From: a virus | Virus record (IMG/VR): IMGVR_UViG_3300034062_002746 | Span: 1-35,360 of that record | DNA: 35,360 nt | Strand: one strand, 5' to 3' | In this document: positions 1,868 to 35,360 of the stretch, one piece after another | Layout of the letters: each line of letters starts with the position of its first letter | Position numbering within the stretch: the first letter of the stretch is position 1 | The notes under the pieces: generated by a model | The model's database searches: none | The model's input: only the letters and a program-made list of their open reading frames with translations | Told to the model about the DNA's origin: nothing | Program-made: the position numbers and the translations under genes

Positions 1868-2080
1868 ATGAACGTTGTTGTCTTTGCAAAAGCTATGTAT
1901 AAGCAGCTGGACGAGCGCCGCGAAACCCTTGCGGATCAGCTCGTCCTCGGTGCCGCTAATAGCTTTGAGCATTATCGGCAGGTCGTGGGAGAGATTCAGG
2001 GACTCGACTACGCGCGGGAAACCTTAAAATCCCTGCTGGAGAAATCTGACGACGATGTCGAAGACACTTTACGTTCCTGA
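1868..2080 (+). CDS. Small helical protein downstream of portal, unknown function
   Basis: This 70-residue protein is predicted to be nearly all helical, with the pattern YRQVVGEIQGLDYARETL followed by an acidic end (SDDDVEDTL). I chose ATG 1868 because a GGGGA motif lies about eight bases upstream; GTG 1862, which overlaps the portal stop codon, is the alternative. Its 3' end overlaps the following co-chaperonin gene by 26 bases, which suggests coupled translation. Short proteins of this kind often sit directly after the portal gene in marine phages. No catalytic motif is visible and I cannot assign a function. A role in head assembly is inferred from position only. Confidence 0.7.
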   Translation: MNVVVFAKAMYKQLDERRETLADQLVLGAANSFEHYRQVVGEIQGLDYARETLKSLLEKSDDDVEDTLRS

Positions 2081-2540
2081 GCACATCGCTCAGCGCATCG
2101 CAGCCAAGAAAGCTAAAGAGGCAGAACAGTCCGGTGTAGGCACAGCCTACGTGGACTCCAGCGCTCGAGTTCTTGACCCCTCCCTCTTGGAGAAGACCCT
2201 TCTCGACCGCCTCCCGCAGCCTACCGGGTGGCGCATTCTGGTTATGCCGTACAAGGGCAAGGATAAGACCGAAGGCGGCCTGATCCTCCCGGATCAGGTT
2301 CGTGAGCGTGAGGCTCTGGCAACGGTCGTTGCCTACGTCCTCCGCATCGGTCCGTTGGCCTATTGCGACCCCAACAAGTTTGGGGACAACCCGGAACCGT
2401 GGTGCGCGGAGGGTCAGTGGGTTTGCATCGGCCGCTATGCGGGCTCCCGGTTCCGCATTGATGGCGGAGAAGTCCGCATCATCAATGATGATGAGGTGAT
2501 CGCCACGCTGGCCGACCCCGACGACATCCAACACATTTGA
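2055..2540 (+). CDS. GroES-like co-chaperonin (Cpn10 fold)
   Basis: Co-chaperonins cap the GroEL chamber so that a substrate can fold inside. Residues about 53-152 follow the Cpn10 pattern: an opening strand (TGWRILVMPY), a mobile loop with GGLIL at residues 74-78 (GroES has a Gly-Gly-hydrophobic tripeptide here), then LPD, a central strand (VVAYVLRIG), GQWVCIGRYAGSRFRIDG and the closing IINDDEVIATL. An N-terminal extension of about 50 residues and an insert at about residues 100-118 (CDPNKFGDNPEPWC) make it longer than the roughly 97 residues of bacterial GroES. The gene lies between the portal and the scaffold and capsid genes, matching the known role of T4 gp31 in folding the capsid protein with host GroEL. 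That specific substrate is inferred. The start at 2055 lies inside the upstream gene; a GGAG about 13 bases upstream is its likely ribosome site. Confidence 0.82.
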   Translation: MSKTLYVPEHIAQRIAAKKAKEAEQSGVGTAYVDSSARVLDPSLLEKTLLDRLPQPTGWRILVMPYKGKDKTEGGLILPDQVREREALATVVAYVLRIGPLAYCDPNKFGDNPEPWCAEGQWVCIGRYAGSRFRIDGGEVRIINDDEVIATLADPDDIQHI

Positions 2541-2550
2541 GGGCATGACC

Positions 2551-3399
2551 ATGAACCAACGCAATGAGGAACTGGACGACGAAATCTCCGTGGAGATCGA
2601 GTCCGAGGGTCAAGAGAACCCTGCGTCAGCGCAGGACGATGATGACGAGCTTGGGCAATACAGCACCAAGGTTCAGTCGCGCATCAACAAGCTCACGGCC
2701 AAGAGCCGCGCTGCCGAACGCGACAAGGAAGAGGCCCAGCGCTTGGCTGAGCAGCTCTACCAAGAGAACCAGAAGCTGCAGCAGCGGGTCAAGGGTCTCG
2801 ATACCGGCTATCTGAGCGAGTACGGCACCCGTCTCGAGGCTCAGGCTATCGCTGCCAAGGACGCCTTCAAGAAGGCCTATGAGTCCGGTGATCCGGACGC
2901 TTTGGCGTCGGCTCAGGAGCAGATGTCGAAGATTGCCATCGATCAGGAGCGTTTCCGGATCGCAAAGCAGCGCTCGGAGGCCCAGCCGCAGCAGGTTGAG
3001 CGGGCCGAGGCCCCGGCTCCGCAGGCCCCGCGCCAGCAGGAAGTCAAGGTCGACAAGAAGGCGCAGAGCTGGGCCGAGAAGAACGATTGGTTCGGATCGG
3101 ACAAGATGCTGACCGCCGCCGCGATGGCTTTGCACAGCACTCTCGTCGAAGACGAAGGGTTTGACCCAACGTCCGATGAGTATTATAGTGAAATCGATAG
3201 TCGGATTCGTCGGGAGTTCCCGCACAAGTTCAAGACTACTCAATCGGCTGCACCAGCCCGGGTCGCCTCTGCCGCGGCAAGTGCATCTAAGGCCGCTGTA
3301 CAGGGGCGCAGGTCGGTGAAGCTCTCCGCTTCTCAGGTCGCCATGGCGAAACGTCTCAACGTTCCGCTGGAAGAATACGCGAAATACGTGAAGGAGTGA
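2551..3399 (+). CDS. Head scaffolding protein
   Basis: Scaffolding proteins direct assembly of the procapsid and then leave or are degraded. This 282-residue protein has the usual composition: a very acidic N-terminus (residues 1-40), a long coiled coil at about residues 40-90 (AERDKEEAQRLAEQLYQENQ), a Pro/Gln/Ala-rich linker, then a conserved-looking segment around WAEKNDWFGSDKMLTAA and SDEYYSEIDSRIRREFP, and a basic C-terminal helix ending in LNVPLEEYAKYVKE, a likely capsid-binding end. I placed the start at ATG 2551, seven bases after GAGGG; ATG 2545 is only one base from that site. It stands between portal and major capsid genes, the normal place for a scaffold. No protease domain is visible within it. 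Confidence 0.8.
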   Translation: MNQRNEELDDEISVEIESEGQENPASAQDDDDELGQYSTKVQSRINKLTAKSRAAERDKEEAQRLAEQLYQENQKLQQRVKGLDTGYLSEYGTRLEAQAIAAKDAFKKAYESGDPDALASAQEQMSKIAIDQERFRIAKQRSEAQPQQVERAEAPAPQAPRQQEVKVDKKAQSWAEKNDWFGSDKMLTAAAMALHSTLVEDEGFDPTSDEYYSEIDSRIRREFPHKFKTTQSAAPARVASAAASASKAAVQGRRSVKLSASQVAMAKRLNVPLEEYAKYVKE

Positions 3400-3403
3400 G
3401 ATC

Positions 3404-3859
3404 ATGACCGACAGAACCCCGCGCGAGAGCGCAACCCGCGATGCCGAATCGCGCCGCAAACCTTGGGCCCCGCCCAGTGTCCTTGACGCCCCGCCTGCAC
3501 CCGAAGGGTATAAGCATCGCTGGGTCCGCTCCTCGATCCGAGGAGAAGAGGACAAAGGAAACGTGTTCAACCGCTTGCGTCAGGGCTACGAGCCCGTCCG
3601 TGCGGAGGAGCATCCGGGATACCAAGCACCCACGATTGAGGACGGCAAGCATGCCGGGGTCATTGGAAACGGTGGTCTGATTCTCACTCGTGTTCCTATC
3701 GAGACAGCCCAAGAAAGAACCGCGTATTACGGGGGCCGGACCCGCGAACAAATGGAAGCTGTTGATCAGGACCTGATGAAAGAGCAACATCCGTCGATGC
3801 CGATCAATCAACAACGGCAAAGTCGGGTATCTTTTGGCGGACGTAAAAAGTCCGACTGA
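3404..3859 (+). CDS. Conserved small head-region protein, unknown function
   Basis: This is a 151-residue soluble protein with a Pro-rich N-terminal third (RKPWAPPSVLDAPPAPEGY), then HRWVR, an RLRQGYEPVRAEE block and a basic tail (FGGRKKSD). The pattern resembles a conserved hypothetical family I associate with scaffold-capsid gene neighbourhoods in marine phages, but I know of no demonstrated function. It starts four bases after the scaffold stop with GGAGTGAG as ribosome site and is followed by an AAGGAG for the next gene, so it belongs to the head operon. It could be a minor capsid or head-assembly protein. No signal peptide, membrane segment or enzyme motif is present. Confidence 0.7.
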   Translation: MTDRTPRESATRDAESRRKPWAPPSVLDAPPAPEGYKHRWVRSSIRGEEDKGNVFNRLRQGYEPVRAEEHPGYQAPTIEDGKHAGVIGNGGLILTRVPIETAQERTAYYGGRTREQMEAVDQDLMKEQHPSMPINQQRQSRVSFGGRKKSD

Positions 3860-3873
3860 CAAGGAGCAACGTT

Positions 3874-4491
3874 ATGCCTAACTCTTCTGGTGCGTTCGGG
3901 CTTCGCCCGATCAACCTCGCGGGTGGCGCTCCCAACAGCCAAGGTACGAACGCGTACTTTATCGCTTCGGGCGCTTCTGCGATCTACAACGGTTCCCCGG
4001 TCATCGCGGTCAATGGCGGCGATATCGCCATCACTGGCTCGGCTTCCGGCGACACCTACAAGCACATCGGCGCATTCGCAGGCTGCGAATACGTCTCGTC
4101 CGTGACTGGAAAGAAAACTTGGTCGAACTACTGGCCCGGTTCCGGCGCGAACACCAACTTTGACATCGTTGGGTATGTCTATGACAACCCCACCCAGCGC
4201 TTTGTCATCGCCACCGACGCGACGTTCACCAACCGGGCTACCGCCCGTGCGGCGATCTTCGAAAACACCCAGTTTGACTCGGGCACTTCGGGCTCGACCA
4301 CCACGGGTCAATCGTCGGCTTCGATGGACGTAGCTACGCTCGATGCTTCGAACGCGTCGCTTCCGCTCAAGATTCTCGGCATCTATGATGATCCGACCAG
4401 CCAAGACTTCGCGGCTGCAGGCATTCAGATGATCGTGATGTTCAACAACCATGCACTCCTTCAGGCTGATTCTGAAGGCACGGTGGCATAA
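3874..4491 (+). CDS. Putative virion structural protein preceding the capsid gene
   Basis: This 205-residue protein opens with NSSGAFGLRPINLAGG, an opening I recall from structural proteins encoded next to the major capsid gene in uncultured marine phages. The rest is rich in Gly, Ser, Thr and Ala and looks mainly beta-stranded, with alternating short strands and turns, consistent with a surface-exposed virion protein. It has a good ribosome site (AAGGAG, 3860-3865) and ends 13 bases before the capsid gene. A head-decoration role is an inference from position and composition; it could also be a minor head protein. No enzymatic motif is seen. Confidence 0.7.
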   Translation: MPNSSGAFGLRPINLAGGAPNSQGTNAYFIASGASAIYNGSPVIAVNGGDIAITGSASGDTYKHIGAFAGCEYVSSVTGKKTWSNYWPGSGANTNFDIVGYVYDNPTQRFVIATDATFTNRATARAAIFENTQFDSGTSGSTTTGQSSASMDVATLDASNASLPLKILGIYDDPTSQDFAAAGIQMIVMFNNHALLQADSEGTVA

Positions 4492-4504: not shown

Positions 4505-5416
4505 ATGGCAATTTCGCGCGCACAACTTGCGAAAGAGCTTGAGCCCGGTCTCAATGCTCTGTTCGGCATGGAGTATGCTCGGTATGAAAACCAGCATGCT
4601 GAAATCTTCACCACCGAGTCCTCGGATCGTGCATTCGAGGAAGAGGTTATGCTGTCCGGGTTCGGCGCAGCACCGACCAAATCGGAAGGTTCGGGCATCT
4701 CGTATGACGATGCACAGGAAGCCTACACCGCTCGGTACAACCACGAAACCGTCGCGCTGGCCTTCTCGATCACCGAGGAAGCCATTGAGGACAACCTGTA
4801 CGACCGCCTCGGCAGCCGTTACACTCGTGCCCTCGCCCGCTCGATGGCTCACAGCAAGCAGGTGAAAGCCGCTGCCATCCTGAACAACGCCTTCACCGGC
4901 GGTGCTTCGGCAGGTGGTGACGGTGTGGCTCTCTGCGCCACCAACCACCCGCTGGTAAACGGCGCTACCTTCGCCAACAAACCGACGACCGACGCTGACC
5001 TGAACGAAACCTCGCTCGAGGACGCTCTGATCAACATCGCTGGTTTCGTTGACGAACGCGGCCTGAAAGTCGCTCTGCGCGGCACGAAGTTGGTGATTCC
5101 TCGCCAGCTGCAGTTCGTCGCAGAACGCCTGATGGTGTCGAACCTCCGCGTCGGCACCGCCGACAACGACGTGAACGCCATCCGCTCGATGGGCATGCTG
5201 CCGGAAGGTTATGTGGTCAACGACTTCCTGACCGACCCGGACGCCTACTTCATCAAGACGGACGCACCGCGCGGCTTCATCCACTTCGAGCGCACCCCGC
5301 TCTCGACCGGCATGGAAGCTGACTTCGACACCGGCAACATGCGCTACAAGGCCCGTGAACGCTACTCGTTCGGCTTCTCGGACCCGCGTTGCGTGTTCGG
5401 TACGACCGGCGCTTAA
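4505..5416 (+). CDS. Major capsid protein
   Basis: This protein forms the icosahedral shell. The 303 residues match the pattern of HK97-fold capsid proteins related to Mu gpT-type heads: a helical N-terminal arm (SRAQLAKELEPGLNALFGMEY), a strand-rich E-loop region (GISYDDAQEAYTARYNHETV), a spine helix containing TEEAIEDNLYDRLGSRYTRAL, and a P-domain with KLVIPRQLQFVAERLM. The C-terminus ends in a strand pair, YSFGFSDPRCVFG. The ribosome site GGAG about ten bases upstream is good. The gene is followed directly by a strong terminator, as is common for the most highly expressed virion gene. No protease domain or long N-terminal prodomain is visible, in keeping with a separate scaffold gene. Confidence 0.88.
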   Translation: MAISRAQLAKELEPGLNALFGMEYARYENQHAEIFTTESSDRAFEEEVMLSGFGAAPTKSEGSGISYDDAQEAYTARYNHETVALAFSITEEAIEDNLYDRLGSRYTRALARSMAHSKQVKAAAILNNAFTGGASAGGDGVALCATNHPLVNGATFANKPTTDADLNETSLEDALINIAGFVDERGLKVALRGTKLVIPRQLQFVAERLMVSNLRVGTADNDVNAIRSMGMLPEGYVVNDFLTDPDAYFIKTDAPRGFIHFERTPLSTGMEADFDTGNMRYKARERYSFGFSDPRCVFGTTGA

Positions 5417-8210: not shown

Positions 8211-8876
8211 ATGACCACATCAGGGACGCGCGACTTCAATCTGGACGTCGCGGAGATCATCGAGGAAGCGTATGAGCGCTGCGGGCTTGAGGTCCGCACG
8301 GGCTACGACGCGCGCACTGCCCGCCGGTCTCTGAACCTGATGTTGGCAGAGTGGGCCAACCGCGGCCTCAACCTGTGGACCGTGGCCGAGGGCATGTTCA
8401 CGGTCACCGCGGGCGATCCGTCCTACGTGCTGGCTGCCGATGTTGTCGATATCCTCGACGTCATCGTCCGTCGCAGCGGAACGGACTACGAGATGGACCG
8501 GATCAGCCGGACGGAGTACTTCACCCTGCCGAACAAGACTACGCAGGGTCGGCCGAGCCAGTACTTCCTCGACCGGACAATCACCCCGACGATGTACGTC
8601 TGGGCAGCGCCTGAGAACTCGACGGACCAGATTCGGTACTACTACGTTCGTCGTATGCAGGACGCCGACTCCCTGACCAACACGAACGACATCCCGTTCC
8701 GCTTCCTGCCCTGCATGGTCGCTGGTCTTGCTTACTACATCTCGATGAAGCGGTCTCCGGAGCGCACGGGACTGCTGAAGGCGGTCTACGACGAAGAATT
8801 CCAGCGGGCTGCGGACGAGGACATTGACCGTGTCCCGCTCAAGCTGCAGCCCGGCAGGCCTTACCTGAGGGGCTAA
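8211..8876 (+). CDS. Head-tail connector protein, P22 gp4-like
   Basis: This 221-residue protein likely extends the portal channel below the head. The N-terminal helical block contains VAEIIEEAYERCGLEVRTGY and RTARRSLNLMLAEWANRGLN, followed by LWTVAEG, the usual opening of gp4-like tail accessory or adaptor proteins in short-tailed marine phages. The middle has strands (ILDVIVRR, MYVWAAPE, IRYYYVRRM), and a C-terminal helical block with CMVAGLAYYISMKRSPERT ends LKLQPGRPYLRG. It begins four bases after the previous gene. Together with the adaptor gene at 9176 and hub gene at 22497 it provides a complete podovirus neck. Assignment to the gp4 group is by pattern, not search. Confidence 0.75.
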   Translation: MTTSGTRDFNLDVAEIIEEAYERCGLEVRTGYDARTARRSLNLMLAEWANRGLNLWTVAEGMFTVTAGDPSYVLAADVVDILDVIVRRSGTDYEMDRISRTEYFTLPNKTTQGRPSQYFLDRTITPTMYVWAAPENSTDQIRYYYVRRMQDADSLTNTNDIPFRFLPCMVAGLAYYISMKRSPERTGLLKAVYDEEFQRAADEDIDRVPLKLQPGRPYLRG

Positions 8877-8879
8877 CGC

Positions 8880-9179
8880 ATGTACGCAACAGGCAAAAAG
8901 GCTTGGGGCATTTCGGACCGCTCTGGCGTCCGATATCGCCTGCGCGACATGCGGAAAGAGTGGACTGGGGCTCTGGTGGGCCCGGACGAATACGATCCGA
9001 AGCACCCACAGCTGTATCCGCCCAAGACCTACCCCGACCCTCAGGCTCTCAAGAACCCTCGCCCTGACCCGGAGGAAGGCCACGTCTACGTCCCCGTGGG
9101 CAATACTGTTTTCCCGCCGGTGGCGATCATCTATCCGATGGTTGTTAGTCTCGGCTTTGTCACGGTGGTGATCACATGA
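8880..9179 (+). CDS. Small tail-region protein with VTVVIT C-terminus
   Basis: This is a 99-residue protein with opening TGKKAWGISDRSGVRYRLRD and MRKEWTGALVGPDEYDPKHP, a conserved-looking head common in marine phage structural regions. A Pro-rich stretch is followed by a hydrophobic C-terminal strand pair ending FVTVVIT. The last six residues and 20 of the last 21 bases match the end of the gene at 24359. A GAGGGG ribosome site lies about eight bases upstream. The stop overlaps the next start by four bases (ATGA). Function is unknown; a minor neck or tail protein is the most likely reading. Confidence 0.7.
   Translation: MYATGKKAWGISDRSGVRYRLRDMRKEWTGALVGPDEYDPKHPQLYPPKTYPDPQALKNPRPDPEEGHVYVPVGNTVFPPVAIIYPMVVSLGFVTVVIT
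9159..9179 (+). repeat. 21-base gene-end repeat, copy 1 (copy 2 at 24635-24655)
   Basis: This segment encodes VTVVIT and includes the ATGA stop-start overlap with the next gene. It matches 24635-24655 at 20 of 21 bases (one G/A difference in a third codon position). Both copies end a roughly 98-residue structural gene and couple it to the next one. Confidence 0.85.
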
Positions 9180-9826
9180 GCTTTACATACGGCCAGCTGA
9201 AGCAGGCTCTGCAGGACTATCTCGAGACCTCGGAGACCACCTTCGTCAACAACCTGCCCCTATTCATCCGGATGTCCGAAGAGCGGATTCTGAAGAACGT
9301 GCAGCTGAGCCTGTTTCGCAAGAACGCCACGGCCAGCGCCACGATTGGGAACCAGTATTTGGCCTCCCCGAGCGACTTCCTTGCCCCGTTTTCCCTGTCC
9401 TATATGGGCGACAACAACGACAAGGTCTTTACCGAGTTTAAGGACGTCAGCTTCGTGCAGGAGTACACGCCCGATTCCAGCACGACCGGGGCTCCGAAGT
9501 ACTACGCCCAGTTTGACAATGAGAACTTCATCCTGAGCCCGACTCCGGACGACAACTACGTCATGGAGCTCCATTACTTCTACCGCCCCGCCAGCCTGAC
9601 GGCCGGTTCGGATAGCGGCACCACGTGGCTCAGCATTAACGCCGAACTGACTCTGTTCTACGGGGCAATGGTCGAGGCTTACATCTTCCTCAAGGGTGAC
9701 CCGGACATGATGGCCACCTACGACAAGCGGTTCCAAGAGTCGCTGATTGGCCTCAAGATGCTGGGCGAAGCACGTCAGGTCACCGACGAGTATCGCACTG
9801 GCATGGTCATTCGAGGGAAGCAGTAA
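9176..9826 (+). CDS. Phage neck adaptor protein (SU10 adaptor-like)
   Basis: This 216-residue protein opens SFTYGQLKQALQDYLETSET followed by FVNNLPLFIRMSEERILKNV, a helical head typical of a widespread phage adaptor family (I recall it under the SU10 adaptor name). Next come LFRKNATA, strands around YLASPSDFLAPFSLSY, and MELHYFYRPASLTAG. A C-terminal helical part contains FYGAMVEAYIFLKGDPDMMA and a closing GMVIRGKQ. Adaptors join connector to tail nozzle or fibres. The start overlaps the preceding stop by four bases, and its own stop overlaps the next start by one. Function at the neck is well supported by family and position; the exact ring it forms is not known. Confidence 0.75.
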   Translation: MSFTYGQLKQALQDYLETSETTFVNNLPLFIRMSEERILKNVQLSLFRKNATASATIGNQYLASPSDFLAPFSLSYMGDNNDKVFTEFKDVSFVQEYTPDSSTTGAPKYYAQFDNENFILSPTPDDNYVMELHYFYRPASLTAGSDSGTTWLSINAELTLFYGAMVEAYIFLKGDPDMMATYDKRFQESLIGLKMLGEARQVTDEYRTGMVIRGKQ

Positions 9827-13288: not shown

Positions 13289-14358
13289 TGTCCACGCTCC
13301 GCACAAACGCGATCCTCGACGCTGCTGGTGGCAACACGGCTACGATCAACACTGTGCCTCTGCGCCCCGGTGTTCTTGACCCTGAGAACCGCATCATCAA
13401 CGGGGCCTTCGACTTCTGGCAGCGGGGGACGAGCTTTACTGCGTCTGCGTATGGGGCTGATCGGTGGAATAACAATACATCTGGGGGCACAGTCACTATG
13501 TCTCGGCAGTCTTTTACTGTTGGGGACACGCTTGGCACTAACAACCCGACTTACTTCCTGCGGCAAACAGTGAGTGGTCAAACGCTATCTTCTTCTACTG
13601 CGATAGTTCAACAACGCATAGAAGGCGTTCGAAACTATGCAGGCCAGACTATTACCATCCTTGGTTGGGCGCGCAGGTCGTCAGGCTCTGGCAACATGGC
13701 CGTGGAAATAATTCAAGATTTCGGCACTGGTGGATCGCCGTCTTCTGCCGTTTTGCTCGCCCCTCAGACCGTAACCTTGACAACCTCATTTGCGCCATTT
13801 GCACTGACGTTCACTGTGACTTCCATCACGGGAAAGACCCTCGGCACTAACGGAAACGACTTTCTCGCGGTCAACTTCTGGACTTCTGCGGGAAGCGACT
13901 TCAACGCCCGCACCAACAGCCTCGGCCTCCAGACCATCGGGGTTGACCTGTGGGGCGTCCACATCAAGGTTGGCACTCACACCACGGCGGCAACAGACTT
14001 GTACAAGCAGCCCGAATTGGGTCCTGAGTTGGCGCGGTGCCAGCGGTATTATCAGCTTATCGCTTCGACAGCGGGTGTGCTGGCTGGAAGAGCTTCTGGA
14101 ACCACTGGCGCAATCTACGGCGTCCCGCTTACTGTGCCAATGAGGGGTAATCCATCTGCAAACAACCCGACAATGATTTTTTACGGGGCCACTGCATTTG
14201 GCACGTCAAGTGGTGGAACAAACACGCTAGTTGCTTATAGCACATCCGGTGTCTCGATTACGGCATCTTTCGTAAAAACAGGATTCACTGGTATTACGGA
14301 TGATCGGGTTGTTAGTATTTACCCGACGCAAGAGTTGACCTTGGACGCGGAGCTTTGA
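13288..14358 (+). CDS. Tail fibre / receptor-binding protein
   Basis: This 356-residue fibre starts at GTG 13288, inside the previous stop. Its opening STLRTNAILDAAGGNTATIN is a common attachment head of marine phage fibres. Then follows a large lectin-like beta domain: NRIINGAFDFWQRGTSF, YGADRW, QQRIEGVRNYAGQTITILGW, strands around QTVTLTTSFAPFALTFTV, and VDLWGVHIKVG, ending with ELARCQRYYQ. The pattern NGxFDFWQRG...ADRW...CQRYY is recurrent in phage fibre proteins with a presumed carbohydrate-binding role. The last 90 residues differ in texture and may be a variable tip. The base composition is lower in GC than that of the head genes. Confidence 0.75.
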   Translation: MSTLRTNAILDAAGGNTATINTVPLRPGVLDPENRIINGAFDFWQRGTSFTASAYGADRWNNNTSGGTVTMSRQSFTVGDTLGTNNPTYFLRQTVSGQTLSSSTAIVQQRIEGVRNYAGQTITILGWARRSSGSGNMAVEIIQDFGTGGSPSSAVLLAPQTVTLTTSFAPFALTFTVTSITGKTLGTNGNDFLAVNFWTSAGSDFNARTNSLGLQTIGVDLWGVHIKVGTHTTAATDLYKQPELGPELARCQRYYQLIASTAGVLAGRASGTTGAIYGVPLTVPMRGNPSANNPTMIFYGATAFGTSSGGTNTLVAYSTSGVSITASFVKTGFTGITDDRVVSIYPTQELTLDAEL

Positions 14359-14360
14359 CC

Positions 14361-14546
14361 ATGAACACCATGACCATTACCTCGGCCAAATACGCCACGA
14401 ACAAGGGCGAAATTGTTGGGATAAACGCCACCATCGACGGGCAAGAGTGGTCCGTGCCCTTGACCCCCGGCAACCGCCACTACGACGAGATCATGCGTCA
14501 GGTGGAAGCTGGCGATCTGGTGATTGAACAGGAGACCCAAGCATGA
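14361..14546 (+). CDS. Tiny conserved protein between fibre genes
   Basis: This is a 61-residue protein. Residues 4-30 form a strand pair (TITSAKYATNKGEIVGINAT), followed by GQEWSVPLTPGNRHYDEIMR and QVEAGDLVIEQ. The W/M-SVP-x-x-P-x-NRHY-x-EI pattern recurs in short genes linked to tail fibres in aquatic phages; its role is unproven, possibly fibre assembly. GGAG eight bases before ATG 14361 decides the start over the in-frame TTG at 14355. The stop overlaps the following ATG by four bases. It is the second such mini-gene placed directly between two fibre genes here. Confidence 0.7.
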   Translation: MNTMTITSAKYATNKGEIVGINATIDGQEWSVPLTPGNRHYDEIMRQVEAGDLVIEQETQA

Positions 14547-15367
14547 GCGTTGTCATCGACGGAACCACGGGCGTCTCGGGCGTAAGCGGGTCGGCATCCA
14601 CGCCAGCCGTGCAGGGCGAGGACAGCAACACGGGAGTGTTCTTCCCTGCGGCAGACACCATCGCCTTCTCGGAGGGTGGGGTTGAGGTTATGCGGATCAC
14701 GCCCGACGCCAGAGTGGGCATCGGGACCACCACACCGTCCACCGCCCTGCATGTGAATGGCACGGTCACGGCGACAACTTTTGCGGGAAGCCTCACGGGG
14801 ACTGCCTCCAACACGACCAGCATTAGCAGTGCTGTAGGCAGCAATTTCACTTGGACTGGTATTCAGGGTTTCCAATCAAACCAAAACACAACCGGGTCAA
14901 ACCCCCCCTTGCAGGCTTATTCATCAAGTGGCGGCGCTATCATGGCGTTCCACCGTGCGAACGTCTACGCCGTCAACATGGGCCTAGACAGCGACAACGT
15001 GTTCCGCATTGGTGGTTGGTCGGCTCCAGCAAACCTCCTCCAGATGGACATGGCGGGCAACCTGACCATGGCCAACAACGTAACCGCATACTCCGACATC
15101 CGCTTGAAGGAAGACCTTGAGCCTATTCCGGATGCGATAGAGAAGGTGCAGTCCCTGACGGGGTACACATACACTCGCATAGACAGCGGGCAGCGTCAGA
15201 CGGGGTTGGTCGCTCAGGAGGTGCAGAAGGTCCTGCCGGAGGCGGTCATGGACAATGGAGAGCATCTGAGCCTTGCCTATGGAAACATGGTCGGCCTGCT
15301 GATTGAGGCCATCAAGGAGCAACAGGCGCAGATCGACGAGCTCCGCGCCAAGATTGAAGGTGTGTGA
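14543..15367 (+). CDS. Tail fibre with peptidase S74 intramolecular chaperone
   Basis: This is a 274-residue fibre. The N-terminal third has shaft motifs (NTGVFFPAADTIAFSEGGVE, VGIGTTTPSTALHVNG) and the middle is a short variable region. The C-terminus from about residue 180 is an S74 intramolecular chaperone: YSDIRLKEDLEPIPDAIEKV, GYTYTRID, QTGLVAQEVQKVLPEAV, YGNMVGLLIEAIKEQ and a closing coiled coil. In this family the Ser-Lys dyad, spaced S-x-x-x-x-K, cuts the chaperone off after the trimer has folded. Here the dyad is Ser184 and Lys189, with cleavage expected just before Ser184. The mature fibre would therefore be only about 183 residues. Both key residues are present, so self-cleavage is likely. 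Confidence 0.85.
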   Translation: MSVVIDGTTGVSGVSGSASTPAVQGEDSNTGVFFPAADTIAFSEGGVEVMRITPDARVGIGTTTPSTALHVNGTVTATTFAGSLTGTASNTTSISSAVGSNFTWTGIQGFQSNQNTTGSNPPLQAYSSSGGAIMAFHRANVYAVNMGLDSDNVFRIGGWSAPANLLQMDMAGNLTMANNVTAYSDIRLKEDLEPIPDAIEKVQSLTGYTYTRIDSGQRQTGLVAQEVQKVLPEAVMDNGEHLSLAYGNMVGLLIEAIKEQQAQIDELRAKIEGV

Positions 15368-34271: not shown

Positions 34272-35360
34272 CTAGATGAGGTAGCGGTACTTTTTGCTGG
34301 ATTCGACAATGTGCAGCTCCTCTTTGGCTCTTGATTGCCCGGTGTAGAAGACCCGGTGTTCGTTGTCTTGGTCTGGCGACGTGGCGCAGTTCTTCGTCGA
34401 GTCCGTCAGCAGCATGATCTTGTCGTCCTCCCCGCCCTTCATGGCATGGATCGTGGACAGGTTGATCTGCGGCTCTGCCAGAAGATCGGTGCCGCGCCGC
34501 TGCAGGGACCGGATGTAGATCGTGTCGTCAAAGGACAGGTCGAAGACCTCAAGACCGCCTTTGTTAACGGTCAAGCCATAATCGTTAACTAAAAGGTCCA
34601 TCGAGTAGCGGCCCTCGGGATCGCCCGTCTCCAGCGACGACATCGCCCCGGTCTTCAAAGCCTGATTCCTGCCGCTCTTGGGCAAGCGCTTGAACAGGGC
34701 CTTGGCCTGATCCTTCGACAGGGTCTCGCCCTTGGTCAGCTTGCCCCATGCGTCGATGGCCGTCGCCACCTCCAAGGAGACGCTGCGTTGCCCGCCCCGA
34801 GAGAAGAAGTAGCCGTCCTCCCGCATCGAGTTGGCCAGCTCGGCCACCTGATAGTTTGTCCGCGCCATCACGGTCCACGAACCTTGGTCCAAGGGCACCG
34901 TGTGGCGGTCCATGTGAAACTGCACCAGCCCCTCCCGCTCGGTCGGATACCAGACCTTTGGCTGTCGGACATCGATCCTGCGGACTGTGCGGTCCGCGAT
35001 GGCGTGGACGGCCCTTGGCAGGCGGAAGCTCTGCGTCAGGACGGTCTTGTTCTCGGAGGCGTTCAGGAAGAGCTGGATATCGACCCCGGCCCAAGCGTGG
35101 ATGGCCTGATCGTCGTCGCCCACGAAGTAGACTTCTGACGCCCGCTCCATGAGCTTGCGGACCACGGCCCACTGCAGCGGCACAAGGTCCTGCGCCTCGT
35201 CGATGATCAGCAGGTCCAGCTTGGGCGGCTCCCCGATGCTGATGAATTGCTGCAGCATGTCCGTGAAACTGAGCTTGTGGTGCGCCCGCTTGTAGTTGTC
35301 CATCGTCCCGACGATCTGCGTCAGGGCAGAGAAGCTCATGCCGTACCGAGCAGTCTGGCG
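34272..35360 (-). CDS. UvrD/Rep-like superfamily 1 helicase, N-terminus cut by window edge
   Basis: The visible 362 residues hold motif II LLIIDEAQDLVP (codons about 35187-35201 for DEAQD), motif III VGDDDQAIHAWAG, motif IV-type SFRLPRAVHAIAD, motif V STIHAMKGGEDDKIML and motif VI VFYTGQSRAKEELHIV with the arginine finger. These define a 3'-5' DNA helicase of the UvrD/Rep/PcrA type. The Walker A motif is missing because it should lie upstream, beyond 35360. The frame is open past the ATG at 35339 to the edge, reading ARYGMSFSALTQIVG, so that ATG is internal. The 2B domain seems short, as often in phage helicases. It is the first visible gene of the minus-strand replication operon. Confidence 0.88.
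   Translation of the reverse strand, partial: RQTARYGMSFSALTQIVGTMDNYKRAHHKLSFTDMLQQFISIGEPPKLDLLIIDEAQDLVPLQWAVVRKLMERASEVYFVGDDDQAIHAWAGVDIQLFLNASENKTVLTQSFRLPRAVHAIADRTVRRIDVRQPKVWYPTEREGLVQFHMDRHTVPLDQGSWTVMARTNYQVAELANSMREDGYFFSRGGQRSVSLEVATAIDAWGKLTKGETLSKDQAKALFKRLPKSGRNQALKTGAMSSLETGDPEGRYSMDLLVNDYGLTVNKGGLEVFDLSFDDTIYIRSLQRRGTDLLAEPQINLSTIHAMKGGEDDKIMLLTDSTKNCATSPDQDNEHRVFYTGQSRAKEELHIVESSKKYRYLI

Follow-up and report, generated by a model that had tools for sequence, protein, structure and literature searches.

The open reading frame (ORF) at positions 2055 to 2540 (plus strand; 161 amino acids, ATG start) encodes a phage GroES/Cpn10 co-chaperonin. Very probably it acts as a lid on host GroEL in the folding of head proteins, with the major capsid protein as the likeliest client. 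The gene is tied to the capsid block, and the tie is near-obligate for one capsid lineage. The argument for a capsid-folding lid is carried by this linkage together with the mobile loop of the protein. The window analysed here is an IMG/VR virus record of 35,360 bases.

Identification of the gene product was based on Pfam, PHROG and PDB matches and on an AlphaFold (AF2) model. Residues 55-151 matched Pfam Cpn10 (PF00166) at 6.2e-9 (36.2 bits, curated cut-off 21.1), and the ORF matched PHROG 3188, "co-chaperonin GroES", at 2e-15. The nearest solved chains by sequence were Cpn20, GroES and Cpn10, and a profile built from 88 phage sequences matched Cpn20 (5e-18), GroES 8wuc (1.8e-14) and E. coli GroES (6.1e-7). 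The AF2 model had a mean pLDDT of 80.3 and a pTM of 0.66, with ten-residue block means of 84-94 for residues 51-160 and of 55-70 for residues 1-50, and it contained the beta-barrel of the PF00166 family. Foldseek placed Hsp10/GroES chains on top. By VIA-align the best match was GroES 8wuc (Z 10.8, rmsd 2.7 Å, 93 residues), with 4v4o at Z 10.2. T4 gp31 was matched at Z 8.2 (2cgt) and 7.7 (1g31), a Z of about 8 being common among models according to the tool; alcohol-dehydrogenase-type barrels ranked below GroES, gp31 and Cpn20 at Z of about 6 or less. The sequence-only reading of a Cpn10-fold protein at this place therefore agrees with the Pfam and PHROG matches and the AF2 fold, and the outcomes named as refuting it, a missing barrel or matches to an unrelated family, did not arise. 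Among the IMG/VR matches listed, at least 593 of the 600 candidate regions encoded a relative, far beyond chance. A likely Shine-Dalgarno, GGAGAAA, can be read from the sequence at 2038-2044 (plus strand), within the preceding small ORF, and TGGAGA occupied this place in most of 80 relatives.

The neighbouring genes, all on the plus strand, form a head block. The C-terminal part of a portal protein, in a reading frame that runs off the window on its left side, occupies 9-1865 (PHROG 1216 portal matched at 1.6e-34 over profile positions 215-630 of 714). It is followed by a generic head-operon ORF of 72 amino acids at 1862-2080, which overlaps the start of GroES by 26 nt and whose family profile matched ahead of GroES in 301 of the 307 loci that had room. 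Downstream of GroES lies a probable scaffolding protein at 2545-3399 (PHROG 28737, nameless in the library, 3.7e-67), its putative function read from its position. Two further head-block ORFs follow, at 3404-3859 (151 amino acids, PHROG 36003, present in 279 of 283 loci with room) and 3874-4491 (205 amino acids, PHROG 37556, 255 of 256 loci with room). The major capsid protein, the presumed main substrate, is encoded at 4505-5416 (303 amino acids, about 33 kDa; Pfam Phage_capsid_4, 1.6e-12; PHROG 371 major head protein, 4.9e-25). GroES had been described as lying between portal and scaffold/capsid genes, and the order found was portal, 72-amino-acid ORF, GroES, scaffold-like ORF, two ORFs and capsid. 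A two-gene cassette of small ORF and GroES was considered and rejected: a similar small ORF occupies the portal-scaffold gap of MW202601 without GroES, a likeness judged by eye at a place where the family profile gave no match.

The same arrangement was present in named phages. A tblastn search of 50,697 phage records gave 29 matches at a loose limit of E 10, led by DSL-LC04, HTVC027P, 023Pt_psg01 and HTVC023P, and the window GroES was 46-55% identical to its four nearest named relatives. By annotation, the block GroES-ORF-ORF-ORF-capsid was shared by HTVC023P (GroES as gp36), HTVC027P (gp55), DSL-LC04, CRP-901 (gp61) and Caulobacter phage RW (GP090c), and in MinM2 it runs across the end of the record. 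The GroES-to-capsid part of the proposed order portal-GroES-scaffold-capsid recurs in these phages. The window carries the HTVC023P-type head module, with homologous genes in the order GroES, scaffold, ORF, ORF and capsid, and its capsid protein was 72% identical to that of HTVC023P. Virioplankton chaperonins were reportedly treated by Marine et al. in 2017. PMC9599517 counts "a co-chaperonin GroES" among the 13 genes that make up the core of HTVC023P-type pelagiphages (n = 82), and PMC10149686 describes CRP-901 as having a structural module related to that of HTVC023P and unrelated replication genes. Since the block is shared by named phages and the core gene is listed in print, the kind and place of this GroES were already known. 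Compared with the HTVC023P-type GroES, the window gene is a homolog in the same block with the same 24-residue loop arm as in HTVC023P, HTVC027P, DSL-LC04, CRP-901 and RW; four of these five have a Trp-Cys pair in the roof, with CRP-901 the exception, whereas the clade of the window has its own N-terminal sequence, LYxPxH...RVLDPxLL. In Alcaligenes phage QDWS535 (L311), a GroES at 3531-3872 occupies the expected slot and has an odd loop region lacking the GG motif.

Linkage was measured in a set picked by GroES, comprising 316 loci or records (302 IMG/VR loci, 12 named phages and the window twice, as itself and as L081). Where there was room, the scaffold gene adjoined GroES downstream in 300 of 301 loci and the capsid gene lay downstream in 193 of 194; a portal match was no farther than 2.5 kb from GroES in 91 of 226. 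A single locus, L230, was missing both scaffold and capsid, and its GroES has the host loop length.

Because this set had been chosen by GroES, loci were also chosen by their capsid protein. We fetched 80 loci of the window type, 50 of the Alcaligenes-phage type and 8 of the MW202601 type, some on contigs shared with the GroES-picked set; at least 3 kb of upstream room was available in 43, 37 and 6 of them, respectively. GroES was present upstream in 43/43 loci of the window type and 37/37 of the Alcaligenes-phage type, while the 3 kb upstream of the distant MW202601-type capsid contained GroES in 0/6. The capsid gene was also carried by five MAG/SAG contigs; room was sufficient on four of them, and GroES was present on all four. 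The window capsid protein was matched by 22 named phage records, and GroES was found in 18/18 of those with a capsid protein at least 39% identical (15 by tblastn, three by annotation and profile). Two of the four more distant capsid matches, MW202604 being left out, had a Cpn10 elsewhere in the genome. Profile search found no Cpn10 in MT836833, a 10.8-kb fragment with a distant capsid. A Cpn10 was present elsewhere in all three long records of distant capsid types (BK063670, MW202601 and the 48-kb contig behind L439) and in none of seven shorter ones, which says little given their length of 4.7-14 kb. The view, taken from annotation, that distant capsid types have no GroES was accordingly rejected. 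The Cpn10 genes away from the head block lie at 42826-43182 in BK063670 and 13699-14163 in MW202601, and in vir526, whose host is written as Methanomicrobiales, the gene is upstream of the terminase. Collectively, this almost invariant association with a single capsid lineage assigns GroES in these phages to head building.

Genes of the block were also compared for constraint. In the clade of the window, the GroES core and the capsid gene had the lowest median dN/dS of seven genes (0.055 from 86 pairs and 0.060 from 680 pairs), followed by portal (0.096, 13 pairs), the other three head ORFs (0.114-0.123) and the small ORF (0.258); the pairs are non-independent, and the 86 used for GroES are those within the dS range, most GroES pairs falling outside it. 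GroES and capsid distances were correlated across 260 loci (r 0.915), within the range of 0.80-0.95 for all pairs of block genes. Such co-divergence marks GroES as a resident member of the block and is no proof of contact. Since linkage and co-divergence are expected for any long-resident head-block gene, they do not name the substrate.

Pfam Cpn60 was matched in 0/16 phage records, the window record being possibly incomplete, while 14/14 control genomes were positive. Host GroEL should therefore be the partner. Phages EL and OBP resemble the window phage in carrying chaperonin machinery, but theirs are Cpn60s, described in PMC5934643 as needing no co-chaperonin, whereas no Cpn60 was found in the 16 records here.

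The feature that sets the protein apart from host GroES is its mobile loop. The loop region spans residues 66-89 (2250-2321, plus strand; placed by profile alignment and residue counts), and the motif GGLIL, pointed out earlier from the sequence, corresponds to residues 74-78. Hydrophobic residues follow the glycine as in other mobile loops: in a set of 88 phage rows (A1), made up of the window and IMG/VR loci, G75 was kept in 88/88 and L, I or V at position 76 in 88/88. HMMER placed four extra residues near 86-89, directly behind the tripeptide region. Counted from G75 to G99, the C-terminal arm was 24 residues in 87/88 phage rows, the exception being L230 with 20, and it was longer than in hosts in 12/12 named phages (24 in ten, 25 in two). 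In the main host Cpn10 copies the arm was 20 residues in 63/63 (60 by script, three by direct count); these were 59 copies from genomes of two phyla and four from MAG/SAG genomes, the best per genome among the matches listed. The arm before G75 was 19 residues in 87/88 phage rows and in 4/4 cellular chains. Judged from these alignments, the window GroES has its true insertion, of four residues, in the C-terminal arm of its mobile loop.

Loop length varied beyond this lineage. Of ten weaker Cpn10 matches in five MAG/SAG genomes, five had an arm of 24 residues (four counted by script and one by eye), four, including L461, had 22, and one had 20; Cpn10s of unclear origin with a longer arm thus occur in bacterial assemblies as well. 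One of these assemblies, titled as a Sphingobacteriales MAG (G011), contained six Cpn10 matches, at least one of which is the phage contig L451. The Cpn10 of MW202601 and its relative (L447 and L448) had arms of 28 and 27, compared with 20 in hosts, so loop length differs among phage lids. The arm of the vir526 Cpn10, counted by eye, was 20.

The known parallel is T4 gp31, which replaces GroES on GroEL in folding the T4 capsid protein, as described in PMC3012670. According to PMC6318259, gp31 has a mobile loop of 22 residues versus 16 in GroES, a chamber 8% larger and no roof loops. The window protein resembles gp31 and RB49 CocO in its phage Cpn10 fold, its presumed use of host GroEL and its putative role with head proteins. 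Like gp31, it is a phage Cpn10 without a phage Cpn60 in the records searched, and its mobile loop exceeds that of GroES, here by four residues. Unlike gp31, it keeps a roof segment; the extra loop residues are on the C-terminal arm, and structural-alignment identity to gp31 was 8-15%. A longer loop with a kept roof is thus an arrangement different from that of gp31. Bacterial GroES and mitochondrial Hsp10 share with the window protein the barrel, the mobile loop and a roof of similar length, and differ from the phage proteins in the loop arm (20 versus 24 residues), the frequent Trp-Cys of the phage roof and the phage N-terminal extension of about 50 residues.

The roof segment spans residues 99-121 (2349-2417, plus strand) and contains W116-C117 (2400-2405). 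It had been read as a loop insert with two cysteines; it is instead the roof, and the real insertion lies in the mobile-loop arm. The window roof is 3 residues longer than that of Xanthomonas GroES. From G99 to G120 it measures 21 residues, within the 17-22 seen across 88 phage rows and compared with 18-19 in 4 cellular chains, and a much enlarged roof was rejected on these lengths. C104 was present in 1/72 distinct close sequences, that of the window alone, and in 1/88 wider rows, so that a conserved C104-C117 pair as a disulphide or metal site was rejected. C117 was kept in 72/72 close sequences and 84/88 wider rows, W116 in 80/88; the third cysteine, C124 in the next strand, was found in 72/72 close sequences but only 35/88 wider rows. 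Trp-Cys occurred in the roof of 7/12 named phages, too few to mark the whole lineage, with Pro for Cys in the CRP-901 group and Tyr-Cys in four of the A1 rows. The motif WCxxG, sought in host Cpn10 loci, was found in 0/59.

An N-terminal extension of about 50 residues had also been proposed, and residues 1-52 (2055-2210, plus strand) do precede the Pfam match. Across the 88 rows, the number of residues before P56 was 4-58 (median 51), many of the starts being script-chosen. In the 72 close sequences L5, P8, Y32, L40, P42 and L44 were invariant, while the extension sequence differs in other, distant clades. Pooled pN/pS was 0.305 in the extension versus 0.087 in the core (136 pairs). On these comparisons, the extension is variable and weakly constrained. 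The suggestion that it selects the substrate found no support in its length range, its pN/pS or its pLDDT of about 55-70, although it could bind some clade-specific partner. Mimicry of the C-terminal end of the scaffold-like protein (LxVPxxxxA) was rejected, as the GroES motif is missing in other clades.

We propose that GroES would be made together with the head proteins, that a presumed heptameric lid would form and dock through its mobile loop on host GroEL, and that phage head proteins, chiefly the capsid protein, would be enclosed and folded before scaffold-driven assembly. By analogy with gp31, a lid role over a phage head protein is the most likely one. The earlier suggestion that GroES serves capsid folding as gp31 does is strengthened by the fold, the capsid linkage, the purifying selection and the lack of a phage GroEL in the records searched; the folding itself we infer. 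The T4 parallel is incomplete, as the roof is kept here and the larger-cage rationale does not simply transfer to a capsid protein of 303 amino acids: the mass is about 56 kDa for the capsid protein of T4 (PMC6318259), compared with about 33 kDa here. A protein of this size should fit the ordinary GroEL-GroES chamber, which leaves the putative need for a special lid unexplained; its reason, if the lid matters, is probably beyond size alone. Counted against our reading are the GroES of QDWS535 without the GG motif and the Cpn10 genes outside the head block in MW202601-type viruses and vir526.

The small capsid protein also gives weight to a different client. The protein could be a working co-chaperonin whose needy substrate is another head or tail protein, such as the portal, scaffold or adaptor, a reading that we consider unlikely but worth weighing. 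The portal-family ORF of HTVC027P is 834 amino acids long, and a protein of that size should exceed the ordinary cage; the 91 loci with a portal match near GroES point the same way. In CRP-901, as described in PMC10149686, GroES (gp61) stays with scaffold and capsid while the portal is gp75, which argues against the portal as client, and a lid serving several clients would also fit. That GroES upholds general host folding during infection, as an auxiliary cold or stress gene without any particular link to the capsid, would accord with a study of Southern Ocean viruses in which viral GroEL/GroES genes are linked to low-temperature life (PMC8407431). It is rendered improbable by the fixed place in the head block, by the 80/80 coupling in capsid-picked loci of two capsid types, by the presence of GroES both in samples from lakes or springs and in phages of Caulobacter, Alcaligenes and cyanobacteria, and by its listing in the core gene set of HTVC023P-type phages (PMC9599517). 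An altered mobile-loop arm may change GroEL cycling, and the protein might then block GroEL and shut down host folding instead of aiding it. The kept hydrophobic tripeptide region and barrel, the location among head genes and the resemblance to gp31, described as supporting folding (PMC3012670, PMC6318259), make such a blocker highly improbable. A lid on host GroEL for head proteins, most likely the capsid protein, is thus the preferred reading.

The four extra residues might raise the lid slightly, by analogy with the longer loops of gp31. A stronger proposal, which we put forward tentatively and regard as doubtful, is that one tailed-phage capsid lineage depends on a purpose-built lid of its own for GroEL. 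The mobile loop of this lid exceeds that of the main GroES in the hosts measured by four or five residues, and the lid would make the chamber taller or differently lined in a way that the 33-kDa capsid protein needs for reasons beyond size. If true, the lid moves as part of the capsid block in a lineage that spans phages infecting SAR11, Roseobacter, Caulobacter, Alcaligenes and cyanobacteria, and the reason other than size could be, for example, co-folding with the scaffold or timely release. Ocean viral GroES genes, often reported, had been tied to cold life or host upkeep (PMC8407431). Since the small capsid protein separates a bigger cage from other reasons for an own lid, a clean test is possible; Caulobacter phages such as RW have the same block and a laboratory host.

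Several other genes in the window were of note. Two ORFs at 8211-8876 and 9176-9826 both match Pfam SU10_adaptor (3.1e-15 and 5.1e-25), giving two adaptor-like proteins in one module. A UvrD-type helicase lies at the right edge on the opposite, minus strand (34272-35360). Among the tail-fibre genes, the ORF at 14543-15367 carries a match to Peptidase_S74 (chaperone of endosialidase) near its C-terminus, adding another chaperone activity to the structural gene set.
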